The translations under genes and the position numbers were made by a program. From Pleurocapsa sp. PCC 7327 (GTDB taxonomy: Bacteria > Cyanobacteriota > Cyanobacteriia > Cyanobacteriales > Microcystaceae): DNA of 64,000 nucleotides. The stretch is taken from the NCBI RefSeq assembly GCF_000317025.1, contig NC_019689.1:757501-821500 (forward strand). The letters run 5' to 3'. A model generated the notes under the pieces. That model saw only the letters and a list, made by a program, of their open reading frames with translations. It was not told where the DNA came from and did not search any database. Positions within the stretch are counted from its first letter, which is position 1, and every line of letters starts with the position of its first letter. Positions 6,946-53,490 of this stretch are shown in pieces.

Positions 6946-8310
6946 ATGACAAGAGATCAAGAGATGTGGAATCACATTTTAGACAGTATTCCAAACGATG
7001 CACACGAAGCGATTATTTGTAATGATTTTGTAGAACCTCTTTTAGAAGAACTGGGATTTACAAAACTAGAATGGTTTCCACAGTTTCCGACAGGTAAAGG
7101 GGCTGTAGATTATGCAGCTAGAAAAAATAGTGTTGGTAATATTTTTAAAAATACAAAAACAAATCCTTATGTTCTAATTGAGGTTAAGGGACGAGGAACG
7201 GTTGCTGGAACACAAATTAACTTAGCAGACGGAACTCCCCAATACAAAGCGACAAAAGAACAAATCAAAAGATATCTACTTTCTCCTAAATGTCAAACCG
7301 CTCGCTGGGGAATTATTACTAATGCAACGCATATTCAGTTATTCCAACGACATGGAAAAGTTATAGTTCCCGCCACTTCTAACTATTTGATTAAAAAAGA
7401 CAACATCACTCAAATTGTCTCCCAGATTAAAAATTTAATTGATTGTCCTCCTAGAGCCTTATCTATTTGTGTTTATAACAATAAAGGGGGAGTTGGCAAA
7501 ACGACAACGGTAGCTAATTTAGCGGCAATTCTTGCATATCTAGGCAAAAAAGTTTTAGTTATTGATTTCGATCCACAACAGGGAGATCTGACGGCTTCTC
7601 TGAGAAAACAAGAAGGAAAAGTTAAATTATCTGATTGTCTTATCGATCATAAGATTAATGTTCGTGATACTATTCAAAAGTTTCAAATAAGATTTAAAAA
7701 TCAGCCTACGCCAAAAAATATCTTTGACTTAATTCCTTCTGACTCTGTACTCGAAAAATATATGGAACCTGGGGAGCAAGCTAAAATTCAGGGAGGATCT
7801 TCTCGCTTAAAACGATTAATTGAACCTTTATTGCAAGAATATGACTATATTATTTTTGACTGTCCAACAAACTGGACATTTTTTAGTCAAAGTTGTGTTT
7901 ATGCTTCAGATGTTATCTTAATTCCAACGCAGCATAATAATTTTGCCTCTCTCAAAAACTCTCAAAAAGTTATTCAACAATTCATTCCACAGATACAAAA
8001 TAAAAAAGAAGATGGAAGACCGATTGCTCTACCAATTTTCTTTAATCATCATAAACCTACCGCTGCTTCAATGAAAAAAACGCATAACTTTATCCAATCT
8101 TTATTGACAACAAGTAGCGGTGGAATTAATAAAAACTTACTTCCTTACTACTATCCAAAAGCAAGTTTGGGTAATTTTAATAAATCAATCTTTACTATTC
8201 CTGCATATCCTATTGTAGCCAGTGCTGGATTTTCTGGGATTCCTGCTGCTTTAACGCATAAAATCGCACATACATCTTATCTCGCTTTAGTTGAGGAGTA
8301 TTTTCTATAA
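6946..8310 (+). CDS. ParA/Soj-type ATPase with N-terminal PD-(D/E)xK nuclease-like (HsdR_N-type) domain
   Basis: This 454-residue fusion has two parts. Residues 1-165 resemble the N-terminal nuclease-like domain of type I restriction HsdR proteins: FVEPLLEELGF, then Asp55 in AVDYAARK and Glu79-x-Lys81 in VLIEVKGRG, the D...ExK arrangement of PD-(D/E)xK enzymes. Residues 170-454 are a ParA/MinD-like P-loop ATPase with the deviant Walker A KGGVGKTT (180-187), VIDFDPQQGD (206-214) and Walker B YIIFDCP (301-307). It overlaps the next gene by 1 nt (TAATG), so the pair is coupled. The region is AT-rich and lacks HIP1 sites, unlike its flanks. A housekeeping chromosome-partition role is unlikely; a plasmid- or defence-derived role is inference. 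Confidence 0.85.
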   Translation: MTRDQEMWNHILDSIPNDAHEAIICNDFVEPLLEELGFTKLEWFPQFPTGKGAVDYAARKNSVGNIFKNTKTNPYVLIEVKGRGTVAGTQINLADGTPQYKATKEQIKRYLLSPKCQTARWGIITNATHIQLFQRHGKVIVPATSNYLIKKDNITQIVSQIKNLIDCPPRALSICVYNNKGGVGKTTTVANLAAILAYLGKKVLVIDFDPQQGDLTASLRKQEGKVKLSDCLIDHKINVRDTIQKFQIRFKNQPTPKNIFDLIPSDSVLEKYMEPGEQAKIQGGSSRLKRLIEPLLQEYDYIIFDCPTNWTFFSQSCVYASDVILIPTQHNNFASLKNSQKVIQQFIPQIQNKKEDGRPIALPIFFNHHKPTAASMKKTHNFIQSLLTTSSGGINKNLLPYYYPKASLGNFNKSIFTIPAYPIVASAGFSGIPAALTHKIAHTSYLALVEEYFL

Positions 8311-9107
8311 TGGGTGACTTCGATAATATTGGTAAACTTATGCACTTGCCTTTAGAAGACATTAAACCAAGTGACGAATTTTTTACAGCACCTGAGTTTA
8401 TTGTCAATGCGGCAGCAGAAGCAGTAAAGACAGAAGGAAGAAATTGGGTTCCTTTAATTGTTCAGGAAATTGCTGAATATAAATATCAAGTTGTCAGTAA
8501 TCTGTTGGTTTATGCAGTTACAGAAAAAGCTGGACTAGAAAGAGTTTGGTGTATTGTAATCGATCCAAAACCAGAAAATATAGAACAGGCAAAAATTCTA
8601 ACAGGAGCAACTAAGCCTCGTGTCAATTTAAACACCGCTTCTAGAGAAACTATTCTTGCTGCACTTAATTACTTAATCAAAGAACCTAATAGTGCTTTAA
8701 AGGGAGTAGATGCCATTATAGCTACTCAGAAAATTGCCGAAGCTAAGCGAGAAAACTGGCAAAGTTTTAAGGAAATTACCAAATTAAAATGTGGGATAAC
8801 ACAAGGGAAAAAATTAGATGCTTTGAAAGAAGTATTTTTTCTCTCTCCTCCGCAAAAAGTAAAATTACCCCCTCTTCCCGAACCTGTTAGTATTAAACGC
8901 GCATCTAGAGATGAAATTTTTGAGCGTCTTAACTACTTATCTACCTATAAGATAGATGGATTTGATACTATCAATCCAGACAAAGCAGCAGATATTATCT
9001 TTACAGCCAGTAAAAGCAAGTGGAAAAGCCTAAATCCCATCTCAAAATTAAATTGTGGTCTTAATCAAGCACAAATTAAAACTTTAAAAACTGTGTTCTG
9101 CCTCTAA
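8310..9107 (+). CDS. ParB-like domain protein with two ComEA-type helix-hairpin-helix repeats
   Basis: This 265-residue protein is coupled to the nuclease-ParA gene. Residues 12-85 (LPLEDIKPSDEFF, then WVPLIVQEIAEYKYQVVSN) follow the pattern of the ParB/Srx-fold N-terminal domain, but the usual GERRxRA arginine box is replaced by SNLLVYA, so CTP hydrolysis like that of ParB is doubtful. Residues 104-176 (VNLNTASRETILAALNYL, then KLKCGITQGKKLDALKEV) and 192-263 (VSIKRASRDEIFERLNYL, then KLNCGLNQAQIKTLKTV) are two tandem copies of a ComEA-like helix-hairpin-helix unit that binds DNA backbone non-specifically. Likely a DNA-binding partner of the ATPase. It ends 35 bp from the convergent transporter permease gene. 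Confidence 0.7.
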   Translation: MGDFDNIGKLMHLPLEDIKPSDEFFTAPEFIVNAAAEAVKTEGRNWVPLIVQEIAEYKYQVVSNLLVYAVTEKAGLERVWCIVIDPKPENIEQAKILTGATKPRVNLNTASRETILAALNYLIKEPNSALKGVDAIIATQKIAEAKRENWQSFKEITKLKCGITQGKKLDALKEVFFLSPPQKVKLPPLPEPVSIKRASRDEIFERLNYLSTYKIDGFDTINPDKAADIIFTASKSKWKSLNPISKLNCGLNQAQIKTLKTVFCL

Positions 9108-49746: not shown

Positions 49747-50253
49747 ATGCATAAAAAAACGTATAAATTCGCTTCTGCTAGAGAGAACGAGCTAATCGTA
49801 TTTTGGGCGTCAAAACCGGGAAATTCTGATAAAGAAGTAAGCGATTGGATCGCGTTTATAAAGCGTCAAGGCATCAAGCGAGTTTGTTGTTTGCTTGCCG
49901 ATAGTCAACTCAATCGTTACTCAGATCTTTTGGGAAAGTATAAACAAGAATTTGGTAGCCATTGTGTTTGCTGGACTCCAATTGAAGATTTTCATCTGTG
50001 CGACCTAGAAACGCTGACTCAGAAAATACTGCCGTTTCTAGCACAAGCAGACAAAAAGGGCGAGAAAGTTGTCGTCCACTGTTCTGGCGGCATTGGACGA
50101 ACGGGGCACTTGTTAGCCGCATGGTTGGTAAGTTTTCAGGGATTATCAAATCAAGAAGCGATCGCAGCCGTTACACAAGGAAAAAATCCTTTCAAAGTTG
50201 TCAAGGCTCTTAATGAACTTCTTAATAATTGTCGTTTAGCTTTTGGAGGTTAG
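49747..50253 (+). CDS. Dual-specificity/tyrosine protein phosphatase
   Basis: This 168-residue phosphatase has the active-site loop VHCSGGIGRTGH with nucleophile Cys112 and Arg118 (CX5R), and a likely general-acid Asp81 in IEDFHLCD. The fold is that of small cyclin-like/DSP-type phosphatases, predicted to be cytosolic. It could remove phosphate from proteins, RNA 5' ends or lipids; substrate unknown. Confidence 0.88.
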   Translation: MHKKTYKFASARENELIVFWASKPGNSDKEVSDWIAFIKRQGIKRVCCLLADSQLNRYSDLLGKYKQEFGSHCVCWTPIEDFHLCDLETLTQKILPFLAQADKKGEKVVVHCSGGIGRTGHLLAAWLVSFQGLSNQEAIAAVTQGKNPFKVVKALNELLNNCRLAFGG

Positions 50254-50304
50254 TTTGTAGTAACGCTTTATTTAGCGCTACAATCAACAATTGATATCGC
50301 CCAC

Positions 50305-52029
50305 TTATAGCTCGCGATCGAAGCCAAATTTATCTCGAATTTGAGCATTAAAATACTGACCCTTTGAAGGAGCATTTTGCAACTCCTTATAGATTGATTC
50401 GGGAACGTCGTGATATTTGTAGATGCTGCCGCTAGCAAATTCAACTTTCAGAATTTTCTGTTTTGAATCGTAGTCGAAGGATTTAATAACGGCACTGTGA
50501 GTTTTGAGTAGCGGGAAGGCGATTACGTCGCGAATGCTAGCAGAATCGGTTAATAACATTACCAGGCGATCGATTCCAATTCCTAAGCCGCCAGTAGGAG
50601 GCATTCCATATTCTAATGCAGCTAGGAAATCTTCATCGACACCGTGCGCTTCTAGATCGCCTGCTGCTTTTTGGGCTGCTTGGGCTTCCAATCTTTCTCG
50701 TTGATCGATAGGATCGGTTAACTCAGAAAAACTATTAGCCGTTTCCCGTCCGACAATAAACAATTCAAACCGTTCCACCAATCCAGGTTTAGAACGATGA
50801 GGTTTGGCTAGCGGTGAAATTTCAACTGGATAATCGACAACAAAAGTTGGTTGAATTAAGCTTTCTTCTACCTTTTGTTCAAAAGCTTCGTTGAGAAGTT
50901 TTCCGATAGAATCGCAATCTTCTGGAATTTCAATGCCTGCTTTTTTCGCTGCTGTTTTTGCCTCATCCAATGTTTTAAATGATGCGAAATCCACCCCCGT
51001 TTTTTCCTGCACTAACTCGTGCATAGTTACTCGCCGCCAGGGAGTCGTCAGGTCAATTTCTTGTCCTTGATAATTAATTTTTAAAGTGCCTAAAACTTCT
51101 TGGGCTACATTAGTAATAATATTCTCCGTCAGCACCATCATATTATTGTAGTCAGCATACGCCTGATAAACCTCAATCATTGTAAATTCAGGATTGTGCT
51201 TGGTAGAAACCCCTTCATTGCGGAAAATGCGTCCGAGTTCAAATACTTTTTCAAATCCGCCGACAATCAATCGCTTCAGATGTAATTCCGTCGCGATGCG
51301 GAGATATAAATCCATGTCTAGGGTATTGTGATAGGTAATAAACGGACGTGCTTCCGCACCGCCTGCTTCGCTTTGTAGCACGGGAGTTTCTATTTCCAAA
51401 AAACCTTGTTGTTCCAAATAGCGACGCATCGAAGCAGTAATTTGAGCGCGACGGCGAAAGGTTTGTCTAACTTCAGGATTGACGATGAGATCGACATAAC
51501 GCTGGCGATAGCGCTTTTCTGTATCAGTCAATCCATGCCATTTATCTGGCAAAGGTAACAAGGATTTCGTCAGAATTGTATATTCGCTGACATAAACAGA
51601 AAGTTCGCCTTTTTCTGTCCGTTTAATCGTTCCTTTTGTTCCTAAAATATCTCCGGTATCTGTTAGTTTTATCAGGGTATTAAAGGCATTAGGAATCTCT
51701 GCCATTGTTTCCTGAATTCTTTTTTTATCCAAATAAAGTTGAATAGTTCCGGTCTCATCTTGAAGATTAAAAAACGCAATTTTTCCCATGATCCGACGAG
51801 CCATAATTCGACCGGCGACAGAGACTTCTACTCCAACTTCTTCTCCATTAGTAAGGTCTGCATATTTATCCTGTAATTCTGCTGCGCGATGAGTCGTTTC
51901 CCATTTATAAGCATAGGGATTCAATCCCAATTTTTTTAGTTGTTCGACTTTCTCAAGACGTGTGGCGCGAATTTCATCTAGGGTAGAATGTTGCTGTGAT
52001 TCTTGGGATCGATCTGAACTCATGGCCAT
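50305..52029 (-). CDS. lysS: Lysyl-tRNA synthetase (class II) with C-terminal KTSC domain
   Basis: This 574-residue aminoacyl-tRNA synthetase has an N-terminal OB-fold anticodon-binding domain ([18 protein letters not shown]), class II motif 2 [18 protein letters not shown] and motif 3 [16 protein letters not shown]. After the usual end ([10 protein letters not shown]) there are about 67 extra residues ([20 protein letters not shown], then [12 protein letters not shown]) forming a KTSC domain, a module named for its occurrence on lysyl-tRNA synthetases. It is thus a known but uncommon architecture. ATG at 52029 is used; ATG 52023 is also possible. Confidence 0.95.
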
Positions 52030-52212
52030 CAATAGTTAACAAACTTTATTGGGAATAGATTTAACAGTTTTTTGCCTTTTTTCGGAGCAAAATGGATAAT
52101 CTAATTATAGTCGGTTTTTGCTCCTATCGACTAAAATGCTCTGTCATTATACAACTTCTTCTAGATAAGATCTTCTAGATAATAATTGTTCCTTTAATTT
52201 TTTTTATTTTTT

Positions 52213-52791
52213 ATGAACGCCGATTCCGAGACCAATTCCAACTTAACATCGAATTCGTCTTGCATTATCGAAGTGCGCGATATGACGATTGACGATATCG
52301 CGCCCGTCTTTCATCTCGGAGAAAGTTTGTTCACTAGCGAACTATATCCCTATCTCTATCGCACTTGGGATGAGTGGGAAGTAATTGGACCCTACAATAC
52401 CGACCCTGAATACTGTTTAGTCGCGAAGGTAGACGGGCAGTTGGCAGGTTTCATCTTGGGAACAATTATCAGCAAAGCAGCCTGGACTTACGGTTATATT
52501 ATTTGGTTGGGAGTGGACAAGAATTTCCAGCGTCGGGGAGTTGCTGACAAGCTGGTGGATAAATTGATAGAACGCATGATTGAAGATGGCGTTCGCTATA
52601 TGCTAGCCGATACCGATCCTAAAAATGTTTCTGCGGTTAAGTTTTTTGCCCGAAAAGGGTTTGGCAATGCTCGCAAGCATATTTTTATGTCGATGAATTT
52701 AAGCAAACATGAATACTATGGCAGATTAATTGCTTACGAGCGCGATAAAGCCGAACGTTCTGGATTCCGAACCCCTCGCCGTCACCTTTGA
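52213..52791 (+). CDS. GNAT family N-acetyltransferase
   Basis: This 192-residue acetyltransferase has the acetyl-CoA motif A GVDKNFQRRGVADKLVDKLI, preceded by GFILGTII and followed by KFFARKGFGNARKH. The core is the RimI-like N-acetyltransferase type; the tail from residue 170 is basic. The likely target is a protein N-terminus or amine. It is divergent from lysS and ends 78 bp before the convergent DUF938 gene. Confidence 0.88.
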   Translation: MNADSETNSNLTSNSSCIIEVRDMTIDDIAPVFHLGESLFTSELYPYLYRTWDEWEVIGPYNTDPEYCLVAKVDGQLAGFILGTIISKAAWTYGYIIWLGVDKNFQRRGVADKLVDKLIERMIEDGVRYMLADTDPKNVSAVKFFARKGFGNARKHIFMSMNLSKHEYYGRLIAYERDKAERSGFRTPRRHL

Positions 52792-52869
52792 TGGGGGACG
52801 GGGAGACAAGGGGACCGGGAGACATACTTCCGAGTTCCGAATTCTTAAAGATTTCCGACTTCTCACCAT

Positions 52870-53490
52870 TCACCTTTGAAACACTACAGATAGGTTATTA
52901 GCTGGCATTGGAATGACTTCTAATAAATTTAAGTCTTCGGCATTAGCTGCTTTGACGACATCTTCTAGGTTGCGGACTCCCCATTCTGGATTTTGAGCGC
53001 GTAACGATTCGTCGAAGGCGAGATTGCTAGAGGATGTGTATTCTCCGTCTTGCTTGAAAGGTCCATACAAGTAGAGAATGCCGCCGGGAGACAGCAAGCG
53101 ATTTGCCCCCGCCATCAGTCCCAAACAAGCCGACCAAGGAGATATGTGAATCATGTTAATGTTAACGATCGCGTTTACAGGAATTCCTGTCTCTTCAATC
53201 GACCAAAGGGAATCCCGCGCGTCTATCTGGTATGGTGGATGTAAATTATCCGATGGATTGCGATCGCGCCAAGCATTGATACTTGAGAGCAAAAGCGGAT
53301 TGGGGTCAGAGGGAATCCATTGGCGAGGTCCGAGGCGCGGTGCGAAGAAGACAGCATGTTCTCCCGTTCCGCTAGCAATTTCTAAGATATTGCCGCTAGG
53401 AGGCAGTACTCGCAATAAGACTTCTAGAATAGGTTCTCGGTTGCGTTGCGTGGCAGGTGCATACTGTCGTGCATCTGTCGGTGTATTCAT
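52870..53490 (-). CDS. DUF938 family SAM-dependent methyltransferase-like protein
   Basis: This 206-residue protein begins DARQYAPATQRNREPILEVL and contains the SAM-binding motif GNILEIASGTGEHAVFFAPRLG followed by WIPSDPNP and NINMIHISPWSACLGLM. This is the DUF938 family, related to class I methyltransferases. The substrate is unknown. It is divergent from the other methyltransferase gene at 53526. Confidence 0.88.
   Translation of the reverse strand: MNTPTDARQYAPATQRNREPILEVLLRVLPPSGNILEIASGTGEHAVFFAPRLGPRQWIPSDPNPLLLSSINAWRDRNPSDNLHPPYQIDARDSLWSIEETGIPVNAIVNINMIHISPWSACLGLMAGANRLLSPGGILYLYGPFKQDGEYTSSSNLAFDESLRAQNPEWGVRNLEDVVKAANAEDLNLLEVIPMPANNLSVVFQR

Follow-up and report, generated by a model that had tools for sequence, protein, structure and literature searches.

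A nuclease-like ParA ATPase and its ParB-like partner form a two-gene accessory module of Cyanobacteria with a putative role in DNA conflict

We analysed a cassette of two genes within a 64,000-nucleotide stretch of the Pleurocapsa sp. PCC 7327 genome (NC_019689.1, positions 757,501 to 821,500; hereafter the window). The cassette encodes P1, a fusion of a nuclease-like domain with a ParA ATPase, and P2, a ParB-like protein with helix-hairpin-helix (HhH) repeats. The pair is a real two-gene, accessory and undescribed-looking module of Cyanobacteria, with its architecture, conservation, co-evolution, tail variation and patchy gain and loss established by sequence and prediction. As for its function, we hold the chances to be about even that it is a DNA-conflict module whose variable reader of DNA would, via the ParB-like domain, license an ATP-dependent nuclease. 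An earlier reading made from the letters of the window only (the sequence-only reading) had described two overlapping open reading frames (ORFs); both are open, run in the same direction and share one nucleotide in TAATG, which would couple translation of P1 and P2.

The ATPase part of P1 is complete, as had been claimed. The window protein matches AAA_31 in Pfam (E 2.1e-34), the deviant Walker A motif NNKGGVGKTTT and DFDPQ follow the nuclease-like domain, and the model matches Soj of Helicobacter (6iub; VIA Z 30.1, 2.5 A over 253 residues). Among the 63 P1 proteins of the tree set (longer than 350 aa, from 66 loci, with L013, L015 and L018 left out), K180 is kept in 62 and K185, D209 and D305 in all. 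The AlphaFold2 model of P1 reached a mean predicted local distance difference test score (pLDDT) of 92.4 and a predicted template modelling score (pTM) of 0.92. Within residues 21-125 the predicted order of elements is alpha-beta-beta-beta-alpha-beta (helix 21-35, strands 43-48, 53-58 and 76-80, helix 98-111, strand 121-125), the order of the PD-(D/E)xK core. D55 and E79-x-K81 were found at the positions given by the sequence-only reading; in the model a strand carries D55, the subsequent strand ends at E79 and K81, and Q106 sits on the helix that comes after it. The nuclease-type residues are kept in most of the 63 proteins (E21 in 60, D55 in 59, E79 in 63, K81 in 61 and Q106 in 58). Furthermore, 30 of 47 family members matched HSDR_N_2 with E <= 0.01, the best at 6.6e-7. 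The predicted HsdR_N-like domain is thus carried by the Pfam matches of the family, the conserved residues and the modelled topology and not by the match of the window protein itself, and the nuclease-like assignment is firmer for the P1 family than for that protein alone. No nuclease stands in the VIA fold list for the whole of P1, but since the ParA domain fills this list, that absence carries no weight.

The model of P2 had a mean pLDDT of 92.0 and a pTM of only 0.67, so the mutual placement of its domains is uncertain. Residues 9-101 adopt the ParB fold (VIA against 7bnk: Z 13.0, 2.0 A over 90), to which PadC (6ryk) likewise matched with Z 11.3. Residues 102-179 correspond to the HhH domain of ComEA (8dss; Z 7.2, 2.3 A over 62), and residues 197-264 gave a weak match to the solved HhH-type chains of the FANCM-FAAP24 complex (Z 3.8); the family HhH-repeat profile counts two HhH in P2 of the window type, and both repeats proposed earlier were therefore recovered, the second of them weakly. 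The absence of the GERR box from the ParB-like N-terminus also proved correct, and the motif scan found this box in none of 65 P2 family members. The canonical ParA-binding motif (L/F/I)G(K/R)G(L/F/I), as defined in PMC12704722, was likewise found in 0 of 65 when the first 60 residues were scanned with a slightly widened pattern. A degenerate [LFIV]GxL[MLIF] motif, perhaps what is left of the ParA-binding motif, occurs in 46 of the 65; in ParB of the phage-plasmid named P1 the sequence is IGRTL (PMC12704722). A Pfam search of 47 P2 members at E <= 0.1 gave 19 families without HTH_ParB, a family that Pfam did detect in a canonical ParB of the Nostoc plasmid unnamed4.

The ParB-like domain is present in 70 of 71 P2 proteins, and the remaining gene (L134) is split into two ORFs. 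The tails that follow it vary: 35 proteins were assigned to ParB-HhH-Rho, 21 to ParB-HhH-HhH, six to ParB-HhH, three to ParB-Rho and five to mixed layouts. In two of the mixed ones (L057 and L061) we read an extra internal Rho call within an HhH-HhH protein as spurious. Some of these P2 sequences had served to build the profiles that called the layouts, the tails for the Rho profile having been picked by a simple pattern; independently, 24 of 47 P2 gave a Pfam match to Rho_N and 15 to SAP at E <= 0.1. With tails labelled by simple patterns, the two main types need one change among the scored rows of the P1 tree, so this exchange of tails is ancient rather than frequent. A constant domain with differing tails of nucleic-acid-binding type suggests that the ParB-like part is an adaptor facing P1 and the tail a reader. 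The extremes of P2 layout are a 394-aa protein with three HhH and a Rho/SAP-type tail (L136:2900-4084, minus strand) and one of 135 aa with the ParB-like domain and Rho_N only (L133:7298-7705, minus strand).

P1 and P2 are inherited together. P2 lies beside 62 of the 63 P1 genes in the tree set, and 43 of the 53 loci holding both genes have overlapping ORFs (by 1 to 59 nt); the spacing is 2 to 53 nt in seven others and 211, 534 and 1,512 nt in three. Distances between P1 proteins correlated with those between their P2 partners over 61 loci (Mantel r 0.917, L130 left out), and none of 2000 permutations reached this value, the highest giving 0.39. Both genes are under purifying selection, with ratios of non-synonymous to synonymous substitution (dN/dS) in two comparisons of 0.41 and 0.19 for P1 and 0.19 and 0.21 for P2; this selection is less strict than that on most neighbour genes. 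At L079:9542-12895 a short P1 is followed by 1.5 kb before P2, perhaps an inserted element.

The family is patchily distributed. A pattern scan of 84,980 species genomes, which detects close relatives only, gave 13 P1 relatives, all cyanobacterial by title. Of 195 genomes of the order, 45 have P1 (E <= 1e-60), as do 16 of 39 relatives (E <= 1e-30) and, by a profile with four candidates scored per genome, 43 of 386 from the phylum (E <= 1e-50); the P2 profile matched in 87 of 291 genomes of the class (E <= 1e-5, remnants and phage-type relatives included). The genome samples overlap and count the window's own genome, and one of the analyses used P1 homologues of at least 370 aa. Against 72,556 plasmid records, tblastn found P2 in seven (E <= 1e-3) and P1 in three (E <= 1e-20), all cyanobacterial.

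Gain and loss could be followed at single sites. In the window's genus P1 occurs in three of four genomes, its own included: the locus of Hydrococcus rivularis (G457) is syntenic with the window at about 95% DNA identity, in G456 the pair stands next to the same right-hand neighbour with a different left flank, and in G458, which has no P1, another gene follows that neighbour. We also traced the gene to the right of the pair of L014 through the family of G191, whose named relatives among the loci are Nostocaceae, and found it in 70 of 145 genomes. When the best 30 of these loci were compared over up to 1.5 kb on each side, 27 had no P1 or P2 match, L248 had P2 and the end of P1 (the locus ends inside P1), L250 a P2 piece of 191 aa and L225 a P2 remnant of 81 aa. 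In four of the 27 (L223, L224, L226 and L227) the site itself is empty, since left-flank DNA is retained within 1.5 kb, the left-flank matches of L223 being short pieces. In all four, homology on the right resumes at position 8139 of L014, 25 nt beyond the stop codon of P2 and already within the neighbour, right by its 3' end. What remains in L225 is a stretch of 34 nt from upstream of the pair and one of 243 nt close to the end of P2, so loss by deletion also occurs. Moreover, six of 47 P1 matches are truncated or contain a stop, some perhaps at contig ends. Synteny in all relatives, which the sequence-only reading had named as a finding that would refute its proposal, is thus absent, and the pair shows minority occurrence, empty sites and variable gain and loss.

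The AT-richness noted earlier was confirmed, the two ORFs having a GC content of 34.1% and 35.1% versus 44.7% for the whole window, and in 52 of 53 loci the pair lies below its flanking ORFs, by a mean of 8.4 points (no pair was dropped, and related loci are not independent). The absence of HIP1 octamers, also listed in the sequence-only reading, is real as a gap of 3,066 bp over the pair. We rejected it as a sign of foreign origin: with 80 HIP1 copies in the window, six of the 79 gaps reach at least 2.1 kb and one exceeds that of the pair, so the argument carries no weight. The longest HIP1-free gap of the window measures 3,102 bp (50158-53260) and lies away from the pair. On the P1 tree, 54 rows coded by family require 33 changes for 23 families, 11 over the minimum of 22. 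The window's family is split into four groups there, with weak branches joining some of them. Such a tree is compatible with transfer, or with ancient paralogues of which some were lost.

ParA proteins dimerise on ATP, bind DNA non-specifically and have an ATPase stimulated by a partner. McdA is a ParA-type example of this behaviour (PMC13052382). In the mechanism that we propose, the pair would spread between lineages as an accessory DNA-conflict module. On binding ATP, P1 would form dimers that hold DNA irrespective of its sequence, as ParA proteins do, carrying its putative PD-(D/E)xK nuclease at the N terminus through the ATPase cycle. P2 would serve as the adaptor, its constant ParB-like domain probably touching P1 while its tail, of HhH repeats or of Rho_N/SAP type, may read a state of DNA typical of foreign or misplaced molecules, for instance ends, forks or single strands. 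Once P2 is bound to DNA, its contact with P1 would shift the ATPase cycle of P1 and so license cutting. In favour of this proposal we count the joint inheritance of the two genes, the retained nuclease-type and Walker residues, the constant ParB-like domain with its varied tails, the patchy occurrence with empty sites, the low GC, and the complete pair and ParB-subfamily proteins met in phage settings.

Several results weigh against this proposal. The function of the pair is predicted from sequences and models. The window P1 matched HSDR_N_2 (E 0.006) and HSDR_N (E 0.02) in Pfam below both curated cut-offs, and the profile of its N domain had no match at E <= 10 among PDB sequences. In one P1 beside an intact P2, D55 is replaced by G and K81 by T (L061:9338-10717, minus strand), so cutting would be dispensable at least there. 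On the side of the proposal, by contrast, stands the sole P1 of the 63 without a neighbouring P2 (L065:9490-10953, minus strand), which has lost both residues, with H for D55 and R for K81; its genome (G137) has a second pair (L066). Between the window and Hydrococcus the nuclease domain has a dN/dS of 0.85 over 165 codons, which alone would suggest weak constraint, and against G456 one of 0.20. Taken together, the nuclease site is kept family-wide yet is not indispensable everywhere. Furthermore, no full-length P1 accompanies three of 65 P2 (L131, L134 and L129, the last of which has a short P1), and P1 occurs in seven species of one genus (g3), so that the pair may be stable within some genera, which suits a vertically kept function equally well. 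No system model of PADLOC-DB 2.0 matched over most of P1; there were only partial overlaps in the ParA region, the best with PDC-M28B (residues 169-237, E 3.1e-9), and P2 had no match in this database at E <= 1.

The surroundings of the pair belong to the same side of the balance. The sequence-only reading placed it between housekeeping genes. In 150 near-neighbour proteins, the first 25 of 113 Pfam families are mainly metabolic or otherwise housekeeping, with no HsdM or HsdS among these 25. A comparison with PADLOC at E <= 1e-15, in itself a weak test, gave no clear defence-island signal. A search with 150 proteins near the pair (of 219, of which 203 have at most 700 aa) gave matches to 77 families, with at most five members for one (mad3), and a search with 146 far proteins (of 147) gave matches to 36, with at most two members (mad3); L080, L091, L092, L093 and L095 were left out of both. 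The near count is somewhat higher, but among the first 25 families many rows are PD-T4-6 models with two or three proteins each. A constant third gene was sought and rejected, the recurring neighbours being limited to clades or members of broad families, and no gene for self-marking, such as a methyltransferase, was a constant partner among the neighbours; the proposal therefore gives no account of how self would be told from non-self. No cis motif was shared within 200 bp of the pair, the most-shared words being HIP1 and AT-rich k-mers. Of what was suggested earlier, a conserved pair with kept nuclease-type and ATPase residues, gain and loss, GC below its flanks and a tail of DNA-binding type is supported, whereas the defence-island setting and a plain plasmid-maintenance module are not.

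The pair might instead be a divergent partition or tethering module, P2 being a centromere-free ParB that grips DNA by its HhH or Rho_N tails and P1 moving or anchoring it along the nucleoid, with the nuclease-like domain as a DNA-binding or regulatory extension. Type Ia ParA proteins have a helix-turn-helix (HTH) extension at the N terminus. The complete ParA fold of P1 and the ParB fold of P2, the two P1 without both D55 and K81 and the presence of the pair on plasmids would suit such a role. Two of 47 matches of the order search lie on contigs C5 and C10 of G111, at coordinates agreeing with plasmids of Nostoc sp. UHCC 0870, which has three divergent copies of the pair, one on each of three plasmids; short forms occur on Leptolyngbya and Pseudanabaena plasmids. 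Each of the three Nostoc plasmids, however, already holds other partition genes (unnamed4 has ParM and two ParA-ParB pairs, unnamed9 ParM and a ParA-type ATPase, unnamed10 ParA-ParB and ParG), so that the pair is not their sole partition-type system. In addition, 11 of the 47 matches are on contigs of at least 2.8 Mb (in G000, G007, G040, G045, G095, G103, G106, G117, G169, G184 and G190), and the pair occupies many unrelated sites. Like ParABS (Soj/Spo0J), the pair joins a deviant-Walker-A ATPase to an adjoining ParB-fold protein. In contrast to ParABS, its ParA bears a nuclease-like domain, and a simple repeat search of the window found no parS-like or repeat array by the pair. With neither GERR box nor canonical ParA-binding motif in any P2 and with HhH or Rho_N in place of the HTH, the pair is not a member of ParABS. 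Such conservation of nuclease-type residues would not be needed for partition either, and we consider this alternative doubtful.

A toxin-antitoxin or abortive-infection pair, in which the nuclease of P1 is restrained by its own ATPase domain and P2 and freed on titration of P2, for example by phage proteins of the same ParB subfamily, seems improbable to us. Its overlapping two-gene operon, the phage-borne relatives of the P2 domain and the loss of nuclease residues from the P1 that lacks P2 fit the idea, and the HEPN protein MAE_18760 with ParA/Soj has been proposed as a toxin-antitoxin system (PMC3710099). Against this, P2 is a multi-domain protein of DNA-binding type and no small antitoxin, its gene follows that of P1, and the P1-only locus is a single case. 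About equally improbable, in our judgement, is a housekeeping factor of DNA repair, recombination or competence, whose ComEA-like HhH tails would act on own or imported DNA. The ComEA-type HhH, the mainly housekeeping families listed among the neighbours, the purifying selection on both genes and the seven g3 species argue for it; occurrence in a minority of the searched genomes, empty sites, low GC, decayed copies (including the L225 remnant) and copies on plasmids or filed as viral argue against.

Among known systems, those nearest to the DNA-conflict module in logic, by analogy, are the GmrSD enzymes and the HEPN-ParA/Soj dyads. GmrSD and BrxU type IV restriction enzymes, likened here by description only, couple a ParB_N-like domain (DUF262) to a nuclease and are countered by inhibitors that phages inject; unlike our pair, they use an HNH or DUF1524 nuclease, and the available part of PMC12373910 mentions neither ParA nor an HhH/Rho_N reader. 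The HEPN (MAE_18760)-ParA/Soj dyads also combine a nuclease with a ParA/Soj-like ATPase in a predicted two-gene conflict system, whereas their toxin is an RNase encoded in its own gene, with no ParB-like partner mentioned in the accessible part of PMC3710099. P1 resembles HsdR of type I restriction in that its N-terminal domain is of PD-(D/E)xK type and has the D, ExK and Q positions. It is not HsdR, since a ParA ATPase stands where HsdR has its superfamily 2 (SF2) helicase, and ResIII was found in only one of 47 family members (E 0.0084). McdAB carboxysome positioning was rejected: McdB has an intrinsically disordered domain and an invariant Trp at its C-terminal end (PMC13052382), while P2 is predicted to be folded and ends in KTVFCL without Trp.

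A survey of ParB-CTPase folds describes fusions of the ParB fold to nuclease and other domains, often on mobile elements, with only the ParB-DUF3850 fusion consistently beside a parA homologue, and its available part contains no mention of the nuclease-ParA/ParB-HhH arrangement (PMC12704722). The window P2 would escape this survey, because its PF02195 score of 14.4 bits does not reach the curated cut-off of 26.3. Titles and abstract openings in the literature, with few subscription papers covered, yielded no nuclease-ParA fusion with a ParB-HhH partner. The sole PF02195 match found in the window's genome lies in a 98-aa frame (G000:C1:4919540-4919761, L253), which is presumably about the size of a sulfiredoxin, so that this search found no canonical ParB in the window's chromosome.

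Relatives of the pair also occur in phage settings. One 58-kb contig filed as viral holds a complete pair of the Rho type (L221:6013-8036), and encodes nearby an XRE-type regulator (phrog_2439, E 4.3e-104) as well as an Erf-like annealing protein (E 1.1e-5); this contig may be a phage-plasmid. A 1394-aa protein with two copies of the ParB subfamily of P2 adjoins a portal protein (L126:5624-9808, minus strand), and one of the same length and scores is encoded 102 kb away on the same contig (L127:3825-8009, minus strand). A 483-aa protein of this subfamily adjoins the large terminase subunit (L219:4834-6285), and another of 356 aa has two copies (L220:5524-6594) in a capsid/tail setting judged by reading of the ORFs, without a profile search. 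The best copies scored 60.5 (L126), 90.6 (L219) and 69.1 bits (L220) with the P2 ParB-domain profile. Among the few other proteins compared, scores were 5 to 13 bits for three canonical ParB, 2 bits or less for small ORFs round L253 and -2.9 bits for one of two classical phage ParB-like proteins, the other giving no match. The L220 protein also passes the general ParB_N cut-off of Pfam (59.8 bits). In 50,697 phage records we found no relatives of P2 at E <= 0.1, none of the P1 N domain at E <= 0.01 and no match to the P2-like domain of L219, and one marginal match to that of L220 (E 9e-3). These phage-borne domains are possibly decoys, triggers of the system or a source of P2. That the pair represents an undescribed immune family, in which an adaptor with plug-in readers couples the ParA cycle to the nuclease and tailed phages carry the adaptor domain in head/tail-module proteins as decoys or triggers, is a more far-reaching version that we regard as unlikely.

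Table 1. Positions, strands and supporting evidence of the features of the P1-P2 pair in the window.
Feature	Position	Strand	Basis
P1, nuclease-like + ParA ATPase fusion, 454 aa	6946..8310	+	ORF, Pfam, structure model
PD-(D/E)xK-like (HsdR_N-like) domain of P1, aa 1-168	6946..7449	+	Family HSDR_N_2 matches, conserved residues, predicted topology
Nuclease-type residues of P1: E21, D55, E79, K81, Q106	D55 7108-7110; E79 7180-7182; K81 7186-7188	+	63-protein alignment
Soj/ParA ATPase domain of P1, aa 169-454	7450..8307	+	AAA_31, VIA, conserved lysines
Deviant Walker A of P1	about 7477-7506	+	Sequence
TAATG, P1 stop and P2 start sharing 1 nt	8308..8312	+	ORF overlap
P2, ParB-like + HhH-HhH protein, 265 aa	8310..9107	+	ORF, structure model, domain profiles
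ParB-fold domain of P2, distinct subfamily, without GERR box, aa 9-101	8334..8612	+	VIA, motif scan, profile
ComEA-type HhH domain 1 of P2, aa 102-180	8613..8849	+	VIA 8dss Z 7.2, family HhH profile
HhH-type domain 2 of P2, aa 191-265 (Rho_N/SAP-type tail or nothing in other relatives)	8880..9104	+	VIA, profiles

The known task of ParA-ParB pairs is the transport of DNA and other cargo. If the proposed DNA-conflict role is true, a ParA switch could gate the destruction of DNA instead of its transport. The family offers a set for testing this, consisting of one constant catalytic protein, one constant docking domain and at least four tail layouts, besides P1 proteins that have naturally lost catalytic residues and phage proteins with relatives of the docking domain.

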